64,000 bases of DNA, taken from assembly GCA_011032825.1 (NCBI GenBank), contig JAADJZ010000002.1:2232001-2296000 (forward strand), given 5' to 3'. This document shows, piece after piece, positions 1 to 7,322 of the stretch; the stretch's first letter is position 1; each line of letters begins with the position of its first letter. The position numbers were made by a program, and so were the translations under genes. Below the pieces are notes generated by a model. That model saw only the letters and a list, made by a program, of their open reading frames with translations, did not search any database and was not told where the DNA came from. Source of the DNA: Massariosphaeria phaeospora (Eukaryota > Ascomycota > Dothideomycetes > Pleosporales).

Positions 1-266
1 CAGATTCAAACTCTGTCCATGGAGGTTCTCGCCGCGGTCTTCCCAAAAGAAAGTGGCTCCTGGTGTATGGAGCAAGGATCTCGGATTGCTTTCCATGACT
101 CTGACGGAAAAGGTTGGTGATGGTGGTGAGCATATGCGATCACGAATTCGGTGATTACGAGATACCTAGGTATATAAGCCCCCTTCCACGCCCTTTCAAC
201 GCTTTCTTTTCTTTCACACTCGCAGCTCTACTGCATTCTGTTTAAAGCTTTGCGAATTCCCCTACA

Positions 267-392
267 ATGAGATTCTTATTTTTTGTCGTGCGCGGTGCAA
301 GATCTTCGAGCAATAATCCCAAGACAATGGTAGTGAGTATCTGCAATCTTGGACTACACACATTCTTCAAAACGGTTGACTGCAGGGTATAA
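267..392 (+). other. Candidate micro-ORF of array unit 171 (41 codons)
   Basis: The ATG lies 96 bp after the TATA box at 171. The frame is open for 41 codons and its TAA stop overlaps the next unit's TATA box at 388. The peptide starts MRFLFFVV and has no recognisable domain. The reading frame is not conserved in neighbouring units, so coding potential is doubtful. Confidence 0.2.
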
Positions 393-734
393 ATGAGCCC
401 TTACTCATCGCATCCACTGCTTGCTTCTATACGTTTCACATGTCCCATTGTGACCTCTCTAGAATTCAATATCGGTACTGACCAAGAGAATTCTCGTCAC
501 TTTCTTAGCATTGCCAATGCATCAAGATTCCCGGGCAATGATCTCGGTTGCTCATGCTGAGAATCTGCGTTTCTAAATCGGATGCTCGCCCTCGAGGGTA
601 TTAGCTGTTGCTGTTGTGGTTTCTAAGCAAGGAGTGAGTATATAAGAACCTCTCTTCGCCTTCTACGCTCTCTTGCTTTCTTCTACACCCGCAGTATGTA
701 CTGCTTTTCTCTAAAATACGCAGGTAACGAGGCT

Positions 735-854
735 ATGGAAGTTTTCTTCGCGGTCCAGAAACTTTGGTACATTTCATTCATGGAGAAAGCTTTGGTGTTA
801 CTTAACCGAGGTAATGATGATGATGATGTCATGATAACCCGTGGTCCGAGATAA
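735..854 (+). other. Candidate micro-ORF of array unit 639 (39 codons)
   Basis: The ATG lies 96 bp after the TATA box at 639 and 26 bp after an exact CTCTAAAA box. The first codons (MEVFFAV) resemble the start of the frame at the left edge (MEVLAAV, from position 18), which belongs to a unit whose TATA lies outside the window. This is the only pair where neighbouring units share a few residues. No domain is recognisable. Confidence 0.25.
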
Positions 855-1320
855 GTAACTACGCGCTTGACACCGCCTAACCAACGAGGTAGATAAGCCG
901 TCATTCTCCTAGTTTGCCTAATCTCTTCAATACAATCATCCACTTGATTCTCTGAAATACTTTTAACGAGATTGATGGAAGCTCCCTCCTATCTGAAACA
1001 CGGGTTCAAACGCTACATGGAGCCAGCTCTCGTCTTCTCCTAAACAAACGCGATACAAAAGAGAAGTTTGAGTCTTCTAACTTGCAAAGAAACCTGTAAC
1101 GGACTATGTTGTTTATACGGGTGTCAAAGTAGTGATGCGACGCATTGCTAATCCGCTGTGCACGTGATCTTCGATACGAGCGAGGTATATGAGGTGATTC
1201 GTCTGATCAATAGCGGAGTATAGCCTCAACCTGATCTAGACCTACTGTAGGATAACACTATAAGGTAAACAATAGTTGCCTTTACCCTAAAGGACTTACG
1301 TTACACTTGAACAAGGATGA

Positions 1321-1422
1321 GATGAAAACTGGAGATGAAAACTGGAGATGAAAACTGGAGATGAAAACTGGAGATGAAAACTGGAGATGAAAACTGGAGA
1401 TGAAAACTGGAGATGAAAACTG
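1321..1422 (+). repeat. 13-bp minisatellite, 7.8 copies
   Basis: The unit GATGAAAACTGGA is repeated seven times without a mismatch, followed by an 11-bp partial copy. It sits just upstream of the TATA box at 1436, so it expands the spacer between two units of the larger array. Confidence 0.95.
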
Positions 1423-3221
1423 TAAACGAGCGAGGTATATAAGTCCCTTCTTAAGTCCCTTCTTCTTACTTGGTCTTTTCTATTACTACATACGGCAGCT
1501 CGAAGGCTGTTGCAATCTAAATATTGACGAAATTCGATCGCATGAAGGAATCGCTGGCTCTTTTTCCTCTTGAAAACTTGCGTGGAGCGTGTCATGATGC
1601 GACTCGTTATTGTGTTATTCTTTTTCTCTATTGTCTGCGACTCCGCGAGGTATATAAGCTCCTCCTTCTTGCGTCAATTTGAGTTATTCTGCTCTATACT
1701 ACAAGAGACCAAACTGTTAGATTCTAAAAACGAATGCCGGCATATCCATGGACTTGTGTCCGTTCTCCCGTTTCTTTAAAATATTCAACAGCTCCGTTCC
1801 ATGTTGGGGTGAAGCAGAGCATTACTTCCTAGTTTATCTCAGCCTCACTCTCCCTTGCCGTATGGCGAGGGAGGCGTATAAGTCCCGCTGCTTGCATTAG
1901 TTTCTTCCGCTTTCTTAATTATAACTTGAACCTGTCACGTTTTAAAAGCGAATCTACACCAATTGATGGCATTTTTTTCGTTCTCTCCTCTCGAAAATGT
2001 TCATCAGCGTCCGAAGATGGTGCGCCGTTAGAACCTTCGAATTTATAGACGTTATAGTCATGTTTGGGGATTATGTGTGTACATGTTTTTGGACTTAGGT
2101 GATGAAATCATGTGCTACGTATGTGGTAATGCAGGTCGTCACTGCGTGGTTCTCCTGGGATATACGCAAGGTACATGAGCTCCTAAGCCTTGCTCTATTC
2201 TTTCTTCTCTTCACCACACTGCGGCTTTTAATCCGCAAGCTTTAAAATCGTCACCAATATACTCATGTGGTCCTGTTCGTTTTCTATCATCGAAAGATTA
2301 TTCAAATATTTGTAGGATGTTTTGAGATCGAAACTGCCACCTATGTTGTTAGTGTTTTTCTATCTTTTACGATGGAACAGTGATGTGAGTTTAGTGTCGC
2401 AGAACATCATGTCCTTTCGTTACCTCACGGTTTTACAGTCGTGTTATCCTTTCGTAATAACACTCTAAAATTGGGAACTATGAGGTTGTGAGTCGGAGAT
2501 CCGACAAAACGTTTAGAGAGATGCTTCTGGATCCGGTGATGCACAACATCGAAAGTTCGGCATGATGTTGCTACGAGACCAAATCTTTATCTATTAGATT
2601 CTGTATTACCAAGCCTTTCAACGTATATAAGTACCTCCTCTCTCCCGCCTCTCTTTCTCTAGTTTACACAATGAGTTTGCATGCTCGTCAAAAGGAATGG
2701 CCGCCTGGTGTATGGAACTGGCGCGGACGTTGCGCGGAATAGACTGAGAAGACATGGCAGCAATGAGATTGCAAGTTGGACTTCCGCTAAGATTTCCCAG
2801 GTGTATACTTGAAAACGGTAATAGAGAACATCAGCACGATCGAGAAAACATCACACAGTCGTCCTTCGGACTCCGCGTCAATTTGCAGGTACATAAGCAC
2901 CTTTTACCCTTTCGTCCTTTCTCCTTATCTACATCACGAGCTTACATACTCTCTAAAACAATAAAAAAGCCAATGAATAGGGTTGGAGCAGAAAACCTGC
3001 GAAACTACTTAGGCGATGCAGTAATTTTGACGCGTTTATAAGACATGTTTCGTAATTTGGTGTCGTTGAGCATCGTCGCGGTTACGGCTTCTCCATGGCC
3101 TCTTCCCTGACATCCACAGACCGATTTACAGCACAAGTATAAAGATACATCATATTCCCTTCTCTGCCCTCTCATTCATACGAGCTTACGAGCCCTCTAG
3201 AATCCCTGGCCTACACATGCT

Positions 3222-3386
3222 ATGGAGACTGGAGCGGAAGACCGGCGAGGGAAGAAATCAACTACTTATCTCGACTATAGAGTCGCGTCGCGGTTTGGAG
3301 TTACGAAAATTGGTAATGTTTTACATCACTACGACACACTATGCCTCGAAAACTACTCCTTCGAGGACTACGGCATGGGTATATAG
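3222..3386 (+). other. Candidate micro-ORF of array unit 3138 (54 codons)
   Basis: The ATG lies 84 bp after the TATA box at 3138. The frame is open for 54 codons and its TAG stop falls inside the next unit's TATA box at 3380. No family is recognisable and no equivalent frame exists in adjacent units. Confidence 0.2.
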
Positions 3387-4300
3387 ATGCCTCCTGCGCT
3401 TACTCTCCGTCCTCTCTTTTACACTGTGGAAGTTCGACTCCGCTATAGAAAACATAGCAGAAGTGTGTTATGGGGATTGGAGTGTTGGTCCCAGAAAACA
3501 ACATGGAAAATAAGAAAGAAGAGGAAGATGACATGCATGATCGCATAGTCCGAGTCTGGATCGATGCGGCAATGCTATCGGGTTAGTGACGTAGAGCATC
3601 ATAAAACCTAGCGGGCCCTAAACTAGTCTTGTTCGGTCCTTCGTATATAAGCACTCTTGCCTTCCCTCTCTGTCTATTTCTACAGTCCGCAAGCCAGGAT
3701 CGACCCCTAAACTGACCTTATTCAAGCGCATAGAGATTGGAATAGAAGTTTTCCAAAAGCAATCAGATAGAGCTATGGCAACACAAATTATACAATCCGA
3801 GTTCCCAATGAACGATATTTCGTTTGATGCTAAGAGGCATTATCTCTAGTTCTGCAGCTCTCTAGTACTCTGTCGTCTTTTAGCCACGTACGGACCACAT
3901 AAGCACCCCAAACGACTCTTGTCTTCTTCTCTTTACAACCCCAAAGTAGGTCTTACCTGTCTCTAAAAAACCTCATGGGAAGATCTGGTGCGAGCGACGT
4001 TTTTGATTAAAACATCGGATATCTTCATGGGTTGATTCTAAACCGATACTCAAAATCCCATGGGTATTTGTAGCATGGTGGAGGAAGTGAAGTCAATCGT
4101 CTAGCTCGTATCTACTATTCCAGCACAACCCATACAGCTTACCATCACGCATAGGCGGAATCTTTTAACAAAACTATTATGCGTATAAAGATCCCGCACT
4201 CGTCAGCCTCCTCCGTCTTTACCTCGCTTTTACCACCTCAGCTACTCCACTCTCTAAAAACCTTGAGGCAGAGCAACATGTGACCGGAATCACTGTGGGC

Positions 4301-4927
4301 AAGAAACAAGAAAATATAAAGAATATGAACTCATGAAATGCTGGTCGCCGTGAACAAATTATCAAAGTTCACGTACCATAGAGCAATCAGATTCAGTAGA
4401 CGTACGATGCGAGACCAATAAAATCACACCATGTTTGGAGCATGTGTGAGTGCGCGTGCGTCCGTGTCTGCAAAAAAAAAAATCAACCGCCAGAACCATG
4501 AGAGGAATTATCAGCAAACGCTGCTGCGTGAAAAAAACTCTTACAAAACCATGTTCAAGAGGCTTCGTGCTTTACAACATGCAGTTTGCTGAAGACGGAC
4601 AACGCTGGGTTCGAAAACTTTCTATGGGGGATCGTGTTGGGGTGCTGGAGTCTGCATGGATCAGTTGAGTTGCTGGTGATCATCACCAATGGAAGATTGT
4701 ACCCTATCACCACCCACTGATGCGGGGAAATGGGGATAGTTGCTATGCGTGTACTAAGTGGCCAGATACCGACCGAACGTAGTTGAAAGGGTCGAGGGAG
4801 GGTAGAAGAAGTGTGCCTGCCGTGGGAGGCCGCGTGAGCAGATTATTTGATTCGGCATTCAGAAGTCTGAATTTCTTTATCGGAGCCCCTCCGCCACCTA
4901 CACCGTCTGCATTCGTGCACGTCCAGC
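4301..4927. other. Intergenic region without recognisable gene
   Basis: This stretch lies between the last array unit and the 3' end of the oligopeptide transporter gene. Short open frames are present but show no family resemblance. Its right part is expected to hold the transporter's 3' untranslated region. Confidence 0.5.
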
Positions 4928-7322
4928 CTAGTCACCCAACGCAAAACATCTCTCGACACTTTCCTCATTATTGCCCCACCAATGCGGCATCGAGATGACT
5001 TTGCCACTCGAAAAGATGATGAACATGAGCAACATGGCAATATTGAAGCCCGCGTCTAGTGCCGCCGCGACAAGATAATTGTACCTCTTCCACGTCTCGA
5101 ACCTGCGATTGTAGAACCAGTACATGCATATATAGCCCACAATGATCCGCGAGAGGTAGCCGGTGCTGAGGTTGCCATAGAACTGAGCGACGCCGGCGCC
5201 GAAGATCGTTACGTTCCAGAGCTCGAATCTGAGTCTCGACTTGGGGAAGGCGCGGTGCAGAGCATAGATGATAACAGGGCTCGCGGCGCCGTAGAGAAAG
5301 GCGAACGGAAGGGGCTTGTACATGTGCTGGGCGAAGAGCCGGTGTGGACCGATGAGGACGTACTGAACACCCATGCTGTTGTAGTTTGCGAGTGCCTGCC
5401 CCGTCCATTGATTTAGGGGGTCTTTCTTGTCACCGAGGAGGTATTCGCCTTTGGACTTAAGCACCCACTGAATGACACCATAGTTGATGGGTACTCCGAT
5501 CAATTCGCCGAAAATCTGACTGAAGAAGATTGCCCGCGGTGGTACATGCATGTAGTGACCTATTTTCTGATCCTGAAGCATATACTGGGCGCGGTACCAG
5601 ATATCACCAGCGATGGCGCCATACGCATTGGCGCCGGCGGGGTGCCTATGTCCACTTCCGGCATTCACCATGAAGCCGTACAAGAGCTCGTTGAAGGAGC
5701 CAATGGCAACCTGAAAAGCCGAGAAGGAATACAGCCAGCTAAAAGGGAAGATCATAATCCCGGACGACAGGAGTGCAATGAAGAACGTCCAGACCGGGAT
5801 GAAGAAGTAGCCTGTGGCGAGTATAGTGATGATAATGACGAAAGAGACAACAAAGAGTGCGACGTACCACCAGAGAGGGACTTCTGGATACGCGCGCATG
5901 AGGACATTCAATCGGTCGGTGTAGTAGTGATTGATACTGTCTTGGCCCTTATCCCTCGCACGAGACCGCAGTTTCTGGATCGTGGCCTTGATCTGGGAGT
6001 AACCGAAGAGAGCCATCCAGGTCAGGGCGCTGATATAAGATGCGTAGTCAAAGAAGAGAGCCCAGATTGCCTGTGTGCCCATGTATACAGGGCCGAGTTC
6101 CTGGTAGGCGGTTTCATTGAACTTTAAATCTGGTGTAATGAGTCGAGTGGCCGGATACTTCGTTCCGTTCTCGAGGAAGACTCGATTTGACATGAGCGCA
6201 TGTTTGTATTCGCCAAGATTGCCCCATTGGGCCGCCGGGAGCAGTATCCAGGAATTGAACACAAACGCCACGAACAGGACCACAGACGTCCAGAACGGAA
6301 CGATCATCGGGCTTGCTAGATTCTGGTTGGAAATGTTGGCCCAATCCAAGGAAAGGTTCAAGAAGCCCATACCGCCGATGCCGGCACCGATGAAGTTCGC
6401 CACAGGGTTGCGGGGTGCAACCCAGCAGAGCAAGGAGAGTGAGCTCAGGAAAGGGAATACAAATTCAGGTAGAAACTGCCACAGGACGATAAAGATGAAT
6501 GTCCCAAAGAACACGTATTTCTGTTTCCTGGCGATCCACGAGTCTCGTGCTGACTTTCTCATCGTCTCGAAAACAGCAGTTTGCATCAAGGAGTATGGCC
6601 AGGTATAAATCGGGTCGTAGAGCAGAAATTGCCGGGCCAAGGCTGCCATTGCGTAGCCAATGTAGACAATTGCCCACATGAAAAAGAGAGATGCTGCTGC
6701 TGGAATCGGGGTATCATAGTAGAGTTGGGCCAAAGAGATGGGACCCCAAGCCGCATTTGAAGTTGCACCAGACGCAGCAGTTACCGTAACAAGCACATTC
6801 TCTGTAGTGAAAATCAGATTACGCCCTTCAGTGTTTCACACCACATACCCTTTACGTGCCACGGGCCCGGGTTGAGGCTGAAGCTAAACTTCGTGAGAGG
6901 AATACGGACGGTCTTTTTTGGCAAGATCTCAGCAAACCAGTAGCCAACATAGTGAGAGGCTGCAGCATGTCAGTCACCGCACAGGTATGGATGCATGGTC
7001 TCTTACCTATCTGGACAAAAAGTACCGGGTACACTGCGGAAGTCGTACGGTAGGATCCCATCTGAAATAGAATCGCCCCTGGAGGGACGAAGATGAAGCA
7101 GAGGAGGAAGTATCGAAAGGTCAGTGTTGGTGCATTCGGATCATCTTCAAGACTTGCAATGTTGCGAACAATCTTCGGCAACTCTCGAACATCGTCAGGG
7201 AGATCGGCATCGTCTTCGGCGTTAAGCTGGGGGGTAGGGCTGGACTCGTTGATATCGTGTTTTTCCGCGGTACGACCACGACTCGCAGGATCGGATATCT
7301 CAAAGTCTTTTGTTGCAGCCAT
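4928..7322 (-). CDS. OPT-family oligopeptide transporter (ISP4-like)
   Basis: This is a proton-coupled importer of small peptides or peptide-like compounds at the plasma membrane. Three exons are read on the minus strand: 7322-7007, 6959-6849 and 6801-4928, with introns of 47 nt each. The joined protein is 766 residues, a normal OPT length. About 110 acidic, disordered residues are followed by a hydrophobic body with many membrane helices. OPT hallmarks visible are NPVANFIG, the block AGANAYGAIAGDIWYRAQYM, and PWHVKENVLV spanning the last splice. The start at 7322 (MAATKDFEIS) was chosen because the upstream frame looks like non-coding leader; in-frame ATGs further upstream are possible. Subfamily and substrate cannot be told from sequence. 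The gene converges with nothing on its left and is divergent to SMC2 on its right. Confidence 0.92.

Follow-up and report, generated by a model that had tools for sequence, protein, structure and literature searches.

Clusters of tiny RNA genes, and arrays of variable segments in a constant frame, are known from several systems. The 21U-RNA (type I Piwi-interacting RNA) clusters of Caenorhabditis consist of many tiny autonomous RNA polymerase II (Pol II) units, each recognised by a motif that stands at a set distance from a variable segment as long as a small RNA. CRISPR arrays hold all-different spacers of fixed length within a constant frame, and small nuclear RNA (snRNA), 5S and spliced-leader RNA genes form arrays of short genes set head to tail. 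Here we describe a tandem array in the ascomycete Massariosphaeria phaeospora (Dothideomycetes, Pleosporales; genome 42 Mb in 51 contigs), found in a stretch of 64,000 nucleotides (C12:2232001-2296000, "the window"). Like the 21U-RNA genes, its units are short, densely clustered and carry a motif at a fixed distance from a variable stretch; the motif differs, however, and the units here are putatively TATA-driven, in tandem at 250 bp each, with a hairpin and a second fixed anchor, YATG. As in CRISPR arrays the spacers are all different and of fixed length (the latter partly because they were picked by length), but each unit has a promoter-like TATA, the frame is kept as boxes only, and in about 100 kb of non-array DNA spacer matches are about as frequent as those of shuffles. 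The snRNA, 5S and spliced-leader arrays encode near-identical RNAs, whereas the units here diverge almost completely and have no Rfam match in the 17.3 kb scanned. We think it probable that the units of this array, and of others like it in the genome, are short, non-coding and transcribed by Pol II, and that these tandem arrays form one large, dispersed family.

The array lies on the plus strand and runs from about -3,770 to about 4,360 in window coordinates (C12 about 2228230-2236360). By hand placement it has 29 units, some with a degenerate TATA: 14 to the left of the window and 15 TATAs inside it. An earlier note on the window had counted about 17 units, nearly all with a TATA box, a pyrimidine tract, a CTCTAAAA-like box and an ATG, in an array running off the left edge. 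These elements are indeed present, the count agrees with our 15 window units plus one partial unit, and the array reaches about 3.8 kb farther left. Thirteen of the 15 window units have an ATG (11) or an ATA (2) 17-20 nt past the box; the exceptions are units 388 and 3896 (units are named by their first position in the table).

The frame common to the units reads, in order: TATATAAGC(C)CC; a C/T tract; ACAC near +45; in some units a hairpin; a box; 17-19 nt; Y-ATG-G/T; and a G/T-rich stretch. The box ends in TAAAA and has the variants TCTAAAA, ACTAAAA, AATAAA(A) and TTTAAAA. The ACAC motif, about 45 bp past the TATA, has C-rich sequence and then the pyrimidine tract upstream of it. Since units were picked by motif, the conservation of the boxes in alignments and in profile hidden Markov models (HMMs) is partly a matter of choice; counts of ATG position, of spacing in the genome and of AAAA runs are less biased. 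Among 56 units picked blind to the ATG there were 45 ATGs at +17..21 past the box and 0-3 at each other position to +45. In 13 arrays, 128 of 181 boxes have an ATG at exactly 17-19. An ATG lies 17-19 nt beyond 198 of the 399 AAAA runs in 11 arrays, as against some 6% at other offsets (a 13-bp minisatellite was masked in this count; the unmasked set and the set of 131 "other" modules include six minisatellite modules). The corresponding figures are 6.1% and 4.7% for the two strands of non-array DNA and 9.5% for the antisense strand of the arrays. The AAAA-N17-19-ATG module is strand-specific.

Throughout the genome, TAAAA-N-ATGG occurs 806 times with a gap of 17-19, compared with 462 times at 10-12 and 364 times at 24-26, two controls that disagree with each other. 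Reversed versions of the pattern gave 643 (17-19), 534 (10-12) and 638 (24-26), which makes reversal an unsafe yardstick for patterns this short. Spacing controls likewise took the place of the reversed control for AATAAA (1,848 v 895), because AT-rich words differ and reversal is unfair to them. Modules can also be repeated. In an array on contig C48 (C48:388001-391500), six AAAA-N17-18-ATG modules stand back to back within one unit, at about 1,278-1,491. In an array on the minus strand of C1 (C1:884001-891000; about 3,580-4,750), roughly a dozen modules of the type AATAAA-N18-AT[GA], none separated from the next by a TATA, recur about every 100 bp. Neighbouring N18 stretches, by reading, are not identical, and we rejected the idea that they are target-site duplications.

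How widespread is the layout? The earlier note had proposed a genome-wide search for the unit pattern, and the layout does recur. The pattern TATATAAG-N45-75-TCTAAAA-N16-22-ATGG (the strict pattern) has 53 matches in the 42-Mb genome and none when reversed, and TATATAAGCCCC-N38-68-TCTAAAA has 40 against 0; a looser form of the strict pattern has 137 against 27. The matches listed fall, by hand count, in about 39 places on 17 contigs (a place being more than about 10 kb from the next, matches with no pyrimidine tract left out, and several places resting on one strict match). An HMM trained on the window array matches all 17 outside loci (10 regions) of the TATATAAGCCCC-TCTAAAA search, with E-values down to 8e-12. 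One match per locus is expected because these loci were selected by TATA and TCTAAAA; 16 of the 17 have at least three at E<0.1. Clusters in the regions looked at are tandem, with a period mostly of 210-330 bp, and in 11 regions the exact-box units found are all on one strand per region. Same-strand clusters are also frequent among the listed TAAAA-N17-19-ATGG matches on C1 and C2, new places including C1:1662-1665 kb. A large dispersed family of such units is real. A further new module cluster, at C1:18-22 kb, with at least six same-strand matches, lies about 20 kb from the contig end and is perhaps subtelomeric.

The arrays have almost no sequence in common, only the frame. This disfavours the suggestion that they are the relic of a multicopy gene family, since arrays otherwise dissimilar retain boxes and spacing; and because almost no sequence is conserved, similarity searches cannot reveal units of this kind. 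The frame TATA, hairpin, TAAAA-N18-YATG is a simple search rule for any fungal genome. Should the units prove to be transcribed, the genome would contain non-coding RNA genes, so far undescribed, whose number we put at a few hundred by extrapolation from a surplus of 344-442 modules and from a looser pattern that catches 7 of the 29 units of the window array. A collection of 2.9 million viral contigs gave 69 stretches with the strict pattern, one match each and no arrays, which we take as background. Rfam covariance models run on 17.3 kb from two loci (L012 and L001) produced two matches, with E-values of 4.3 and 4.1, far under the gathering scores. The literature searched, on such elements, on the species, on polyadenylation and on the Argonautes of Pleosporales, held no description of the arrays; its absence there is weak evidence because most subscription papers and all bioRxiv preprints lie outside the coverage. 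Within these bounds the family is undescribed, as the earlier note had it.

The conserved ATG does not behave as a start codon. Open reading frames (ORFs) that begin at it have a median length of 23 aa (45 units; quartiles 12-34), close to the 19 aa (quartiles 8-37) of control ATGs, namely every ATG of that DNA on its stored strand. Base -3 is A or G in about 45-54%, as expected without selection, several units have ATA in place of ATG, and peptides and reading frames look unconserved by reading. One feature is start-codon-like: the base after the ATG is G in 64% of the modules with TCTAAAA and in 49% of the rest. This, the promoter-like upstream parts and some ORFs of 41-119 aa are what speaks for tandem genes for very short peptides, as the earlier note had suggested, or for the decayed remains of such a family. 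Given the ORF lengths, the bases at -3, the ATA variants and the apparently unconserved frames, we regard that explanation as highly unlikely; decay, moreover, would not preserve boxes and spacing across otherwise dissimilar arrays. The predicted product of the units is non-coding.

Of the readings offered in the earlier note, tiny transcription units for non-coding RNAs is the one that survives. In our preferred explanation, Pol II would assemble on the TATA and start near the ACAC motif. The resulting short capped RNA would begin with the hairpin and hold a box-spacer-AUG module, in which the box and the YAUG would most likely both be contacted by a single protein or ribonucleoprotein that measures 18 nt. 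Further AAAA-N18-ATG modules downstream could be back-ups of the same signal or could lengthen the RNA, and arrays would grow by tandem duplication.

The hairpin was assessed in the 26 nt ahead of the box. Relative to shuffles, its minimum free energy (MFE) has a z of -0.85 +/- 0.17 in 56 units and -0.72 +/- 0.11 in a set of 146; short windows without the hairpin range from -0.30 to +0.09. With their own arms the stems score 10.57, and with 5' arms swapped inside an array 9.74 (sd 0.25), none of 100 swaps being as high as the original; swaps between arrays give 9.71 (sd 0.31). Apart from one considered below, windows whose end is neither at nor immediately past the box have z from -1.5 to 1.4. 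Stems in which the changes are seen include CACTGC/GCAGTG, AACCC/GGGTT, GAAGC/GCTTC and CGTCG/CGACG. An earlier MFE window across ATGG..AAAA had z -0.30 +/- 0.17. In the minus-strand C1 array most modules have a second hairpin past the ATG, of the kind CGCCG...CGGCG, with five pairs, three of them changed on both sides.

The module could alternatively be a DNA element in which a factor has two contact sites 18 bp apart, the RNA being incidental: either a second core promoter that starts at the YA, or a site for a chromatin or boundary complex. Such an element would suit a spacing fixed at about two turns of the helix and a spacer that is not conserved, the TCTAAAA/TATAAAA box is TATA-like, and Y-A resembles a start-site pair. 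The strand specificity of the module argues against it, as does the hairpin ahead of the box, whose G.U-compatible changes suit RNA better, and AAAA modules such as GGAAAA are, by reading, unlike sites for the TATA-binding protein. We consider this alternative quite unlikely.

A third explanation concerns the end of the transcript. Cleavage/polyadenylation sites likewise have an A-rich box, about 18 nt, YA and G/T-rich sequence downstream, so that TAAAA-N18-YATG-G/T-rich could be such a signal, in ultra-short polyadenylated transcripts with redundant terminators. In composition and spacing the module resembles one (an A-rich hexamer, 10-30 nt, YA, U/GU-rich sequence downstream). Some arrays have literal AATAAA variants of the box, a Y precedes the A in about 67-68% with G/T-rich sequence after it, the hairpin lies immediately upstream of the box, the spacer is conserved in length alone, and the repeated downstream modules resemble fail-safes. 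The spacing here is tighter than at known sites, however, and polyadenylation signals do not usually have a fixed TG following the A. Nor is there a surplus of single sites: of 95 listed matches to AATAAA-N17-19-ATG on C1, about 49 by hand count lie outside same-strand clusters, where rough chance would give about 51. Ordinary genes may therefore lack this signal. The 3' regions past long ORFs have 5 module matches versus 2.0 expected, numbers too small to weigh either way. A review of fungal polyadenylation (PMC12667328) describes yeast signals as degenerate and A-rich, with no downstream elements, unlike the module. We judge a polyadenylation signal as the whole story rather unlikely. It would be compatible with short Pol II units, in which case the spacer would be neutral, and if the module does mark 3' ends, it would do so with an unusually exact 18-nt ruler in extreme arrays of ultra-short genes.

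Several observations weigh against short Pol II units built on the common frame. In the 13 arrays, 53 of the 181 boxes have no ATG at 17-19, and TATA-less modules occur, as in the minus-strand C1 array. Orientation is mixed on C45, where a strict-type match on the plus strand at 2018.9 kb stands beside others on the minus strand at 2020.6-2021.7 kb. The hairpin is missing from many units; between-array swaps reach 10.65, which exceeds the observed 10.59, and in one control window, 5 nt upstream, the swaps score significantly better than the original arms (z -3.5). The hairpin is therefore weak and not universal. A general second hairpin past the ATG was rejected (z 0.01 +/- 0.09 for 100 of 262 segments).

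The spacer between box and ATG is the least conserved part of the unit, being at random identity between paralogues with kept flanks. The 128 spacers (for which a length of 17-19 was the selection criterion, the spacing itself being measured by the genome counts) are all distinct, and no pair has an 11-mer in common on either strand. No two spacers of the same array have an 8-mer in common, which is not remarkable alone as very few such pairs are expected by chance; the numbers of pairs are 19 for the preceding 18 nt, 30 for the following 18 nt and 4-11 for farther segments. For the 15 paralogue pairs with the closest flanks (9 arrays), spacer identity over random is +0.01 (standard error 0.01), compared with +0.22 for the hairpin segment, +0.18 past the ATG, +0.07 at -110..-75, +0.05 at +70..+100 and +0.02 at +100..+150; every non-spacer segment from -150 to +100 has +0.05 to +0.22. 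Two units of one array (L064) are 97% identical in their left flanks and 94% identical in the next 18 bases, and their spacers agree at 2 of 18 ungapped positions by eye; with gaps the identity of these spacers is 0.61, within the random 0.52 +/- 0.08. The spacers show no folding (z 0.00), and pairing with their own unit was tested and rejected.

Such figures would fit a repertoire of guide-like RNAs: a few hundred TATA-driven mini-genes, each with a single-stranded variable stretch of 17-19 nt between UAAAA and YAUGG anchors and a 5' hairpin ahead. The variable stretch would be renewed faster than the rest of the unit, and an enlarged Argonaute set would use the stretches, for instance to counter viruses or mobile elements. 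The usual number of Argonautes in filamentous ascomycetes is two to four; the RNA interference gene set here is large by comparison. Fourteen Piwi-domain matches fall at nine loci, some of which have in-frame stops that may be introns or signs of decay, and RNA-dependent RNA polymerase domains match at five places in the genome. The nine Piwi loci are consistent with guides but no proof of them, and neutral drift under a length constraint explains the spacer numbers nearly as well. The paralogue pairs are not independent, neutral segments are near random too, and spacers behind non-TAAAA AAAA boxes retain an identity of +0.12 in comparable pairs (n=14). No target was found: spacer 11-, 12- and 13-mers match about 100 kb of non-array DNA in 31, 5 and 3 of 128 cases (shuffles 31.3, 8.2 and 1.9), and a whole-genome search was insensitive, recovering 0 of its own 31 positive controls. 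We think a guide function improbable; if the fixed-length stretch did carry specificity, the arrays would be a eukaryotic repertoire of variable RNAs.

At the window locus, an HMM built from 14 hand-picked units was used to search 104 kb on the plus strand and recovers 9 of the 15 hand-placed non-seed units at E<0.01. Iterated on its own matches, which makes the result circular, it places 23 units with E<1e-6, none of them outside the interval from -3769 to 3479 in window coordinates; beyond the array nothing matches better than E=8. Of the two halves of the array, the one in the window is the more eroded: matches are weak or insignificant for units 3138, 3644, 3896 and 4182, and there is no significant match for 388 and 890. 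The best-kept unit in the window, 639..889, also matches the strict genome pattern. BLAST of 4.3 kb and 2.7 kb of the array against the genome found no other copies of whole units. Satellite DNA and a transposon were rejected as explanations: full-length copies of units were not found elsewhere by BLAST, and the motif frame alone recurs.

The array follows the 3' end of a plus-strand EXPERA gene, which ends about 4.1 kb to the left of the window (L012:5869; the array begins at L012:6230), and runs into the 3' end of an OPT gene. The OPT transporter (4931-6835, minus strand) is 100% identical to a protein of M. phaeospora, and its nearest matches in other Pleosporales are from Byssothecium, Pleomassaria and Periconia. 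As both convergent neighbours face it with their 3' ends, we see no gene that array promoters could serve here, and a promoter or enhancer array for a gene, another suggestion of the earlier note, is unlikely at this locus.

Table. Features of the window and Piwi loci of the genome (window coordinates unless a contig is given)
Feature	Position	Strand	Basis or remark
Right half of tandem array	1..4360	+	HMM and hand placement
Remainder of unit with TATA at -73; spacer 1-18, ATGG at 19	1..170	+	Hand placement
Unit, TATA 171; TTTAAA, then 20 nt, ATG	171..387	+	Hand placement, HMM
Unit, TATAAATG 388; box TCTAGAA 458; AT[GA] absent at 17-20	388..638	+	No HMM match
Unit, TATA 639; hairpin CGCAGTATGTACTGC; TCTAAAA 710-716; spacer 717-734 (18 nt); ATGG 735	639..889	+	HMM
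Unit, TAGATAAG 890; box TCTGAAA, 17 nt, ATGG	890..1175	+	Sequence reading; HMM insignificant, E 7.3
Insertion in a unit: dispersed retroposon-like element	1176..1440	+	Outside the system
Unit broken by insertion, TATA 1436; TCTAAA, then 20 nt, ATG	1436..1650	+	Hand placement, HMM
Unit, TATA 1651; TCTAAAA 1723; 17-nt spacer; ATGG 1748	1651..1874	+	HMM, strict pattern
Unit, TATAAG 1877; TTTAAAA 1941; 18-nt spacer; ATGG 1966	1875..2171	+	HMM
Unit, TACATGAG 2172; hairpin TGCGGCTTTTAATCCGCA; TTTAAAA 2241; 17-nt spacer; ATG 2265	2172..2623	+	HMM; a degenerate stretch follows
Unit, TATA 2624; CAAAA, 18 nt, ATGG	2624..2889	+	HMM
Unit, TACATAAG 2890; TCTAAAA 2952; ATAGGG 18 nt on	2890..3137	+	HMM
Unit, TATAAAG 3138; TCTAGAA 3196; ATGG 19 nt on	3138..3379	+	HMM weak, E 0.2
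Unit, TATATAG 3380; TATAGAA 3444; 17-nt spacer; ATGG 3470	3380..3643	+	HMM
Unit, TATA 3644; CCTAAAC 3706; ATAG 3730	3644..3895	+	HMM weak, E 0.05
Unit, CACATAAG 3896; TCTAAAA 3962; AT[GA] absent at 17-20	3896..4181	+	HMM weak, E 0.12
Last unit, TATAAAG 4184; TCTAAAA 4253; 17-nt spacer; ATG 4278	4182..4360	+	HMM insignificant
OPT oligopeptide transporter gene	4928..6835	-	3' end towards array; flanking gene, outside the system
Piwi loci	C48:1042064, C4:304143, C15:135285, C15:211896, C15:714125, C27:253236, C27:402317, C30:179087, C12:733588

The irregularity of the array at 1176-1440 is due to the inserted element. The element is about 140 bp long, is the sole dispersed match of the array (BLAST match 1188-1427) and has 37 other matches in the genome. 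A direct repeat, ACGAGCGAGGTATAT, bounds the insertion at 1176-1190 and 1426-1440 as a target-site duplication, and such duplications were seen by eye at several genomic copies. The 13-bp end of the element, GAGATGAAAACTG, is expanded to eight copies, and the insertion is placed at the TATA box of a unit.

Between units, 40-80 bp ahead of the next TATA, lies a (GTGATGATG)...GCA-like motif, represented by GTGAGTATCTGCA at 333-345. A reading of GTGAGTATCTGCA as an intron or splice donor was rejected, as the GT is not kept between units by reading. In other arrays the motif is partly an inverted repeat by eye, and it may be an upstream activating site.

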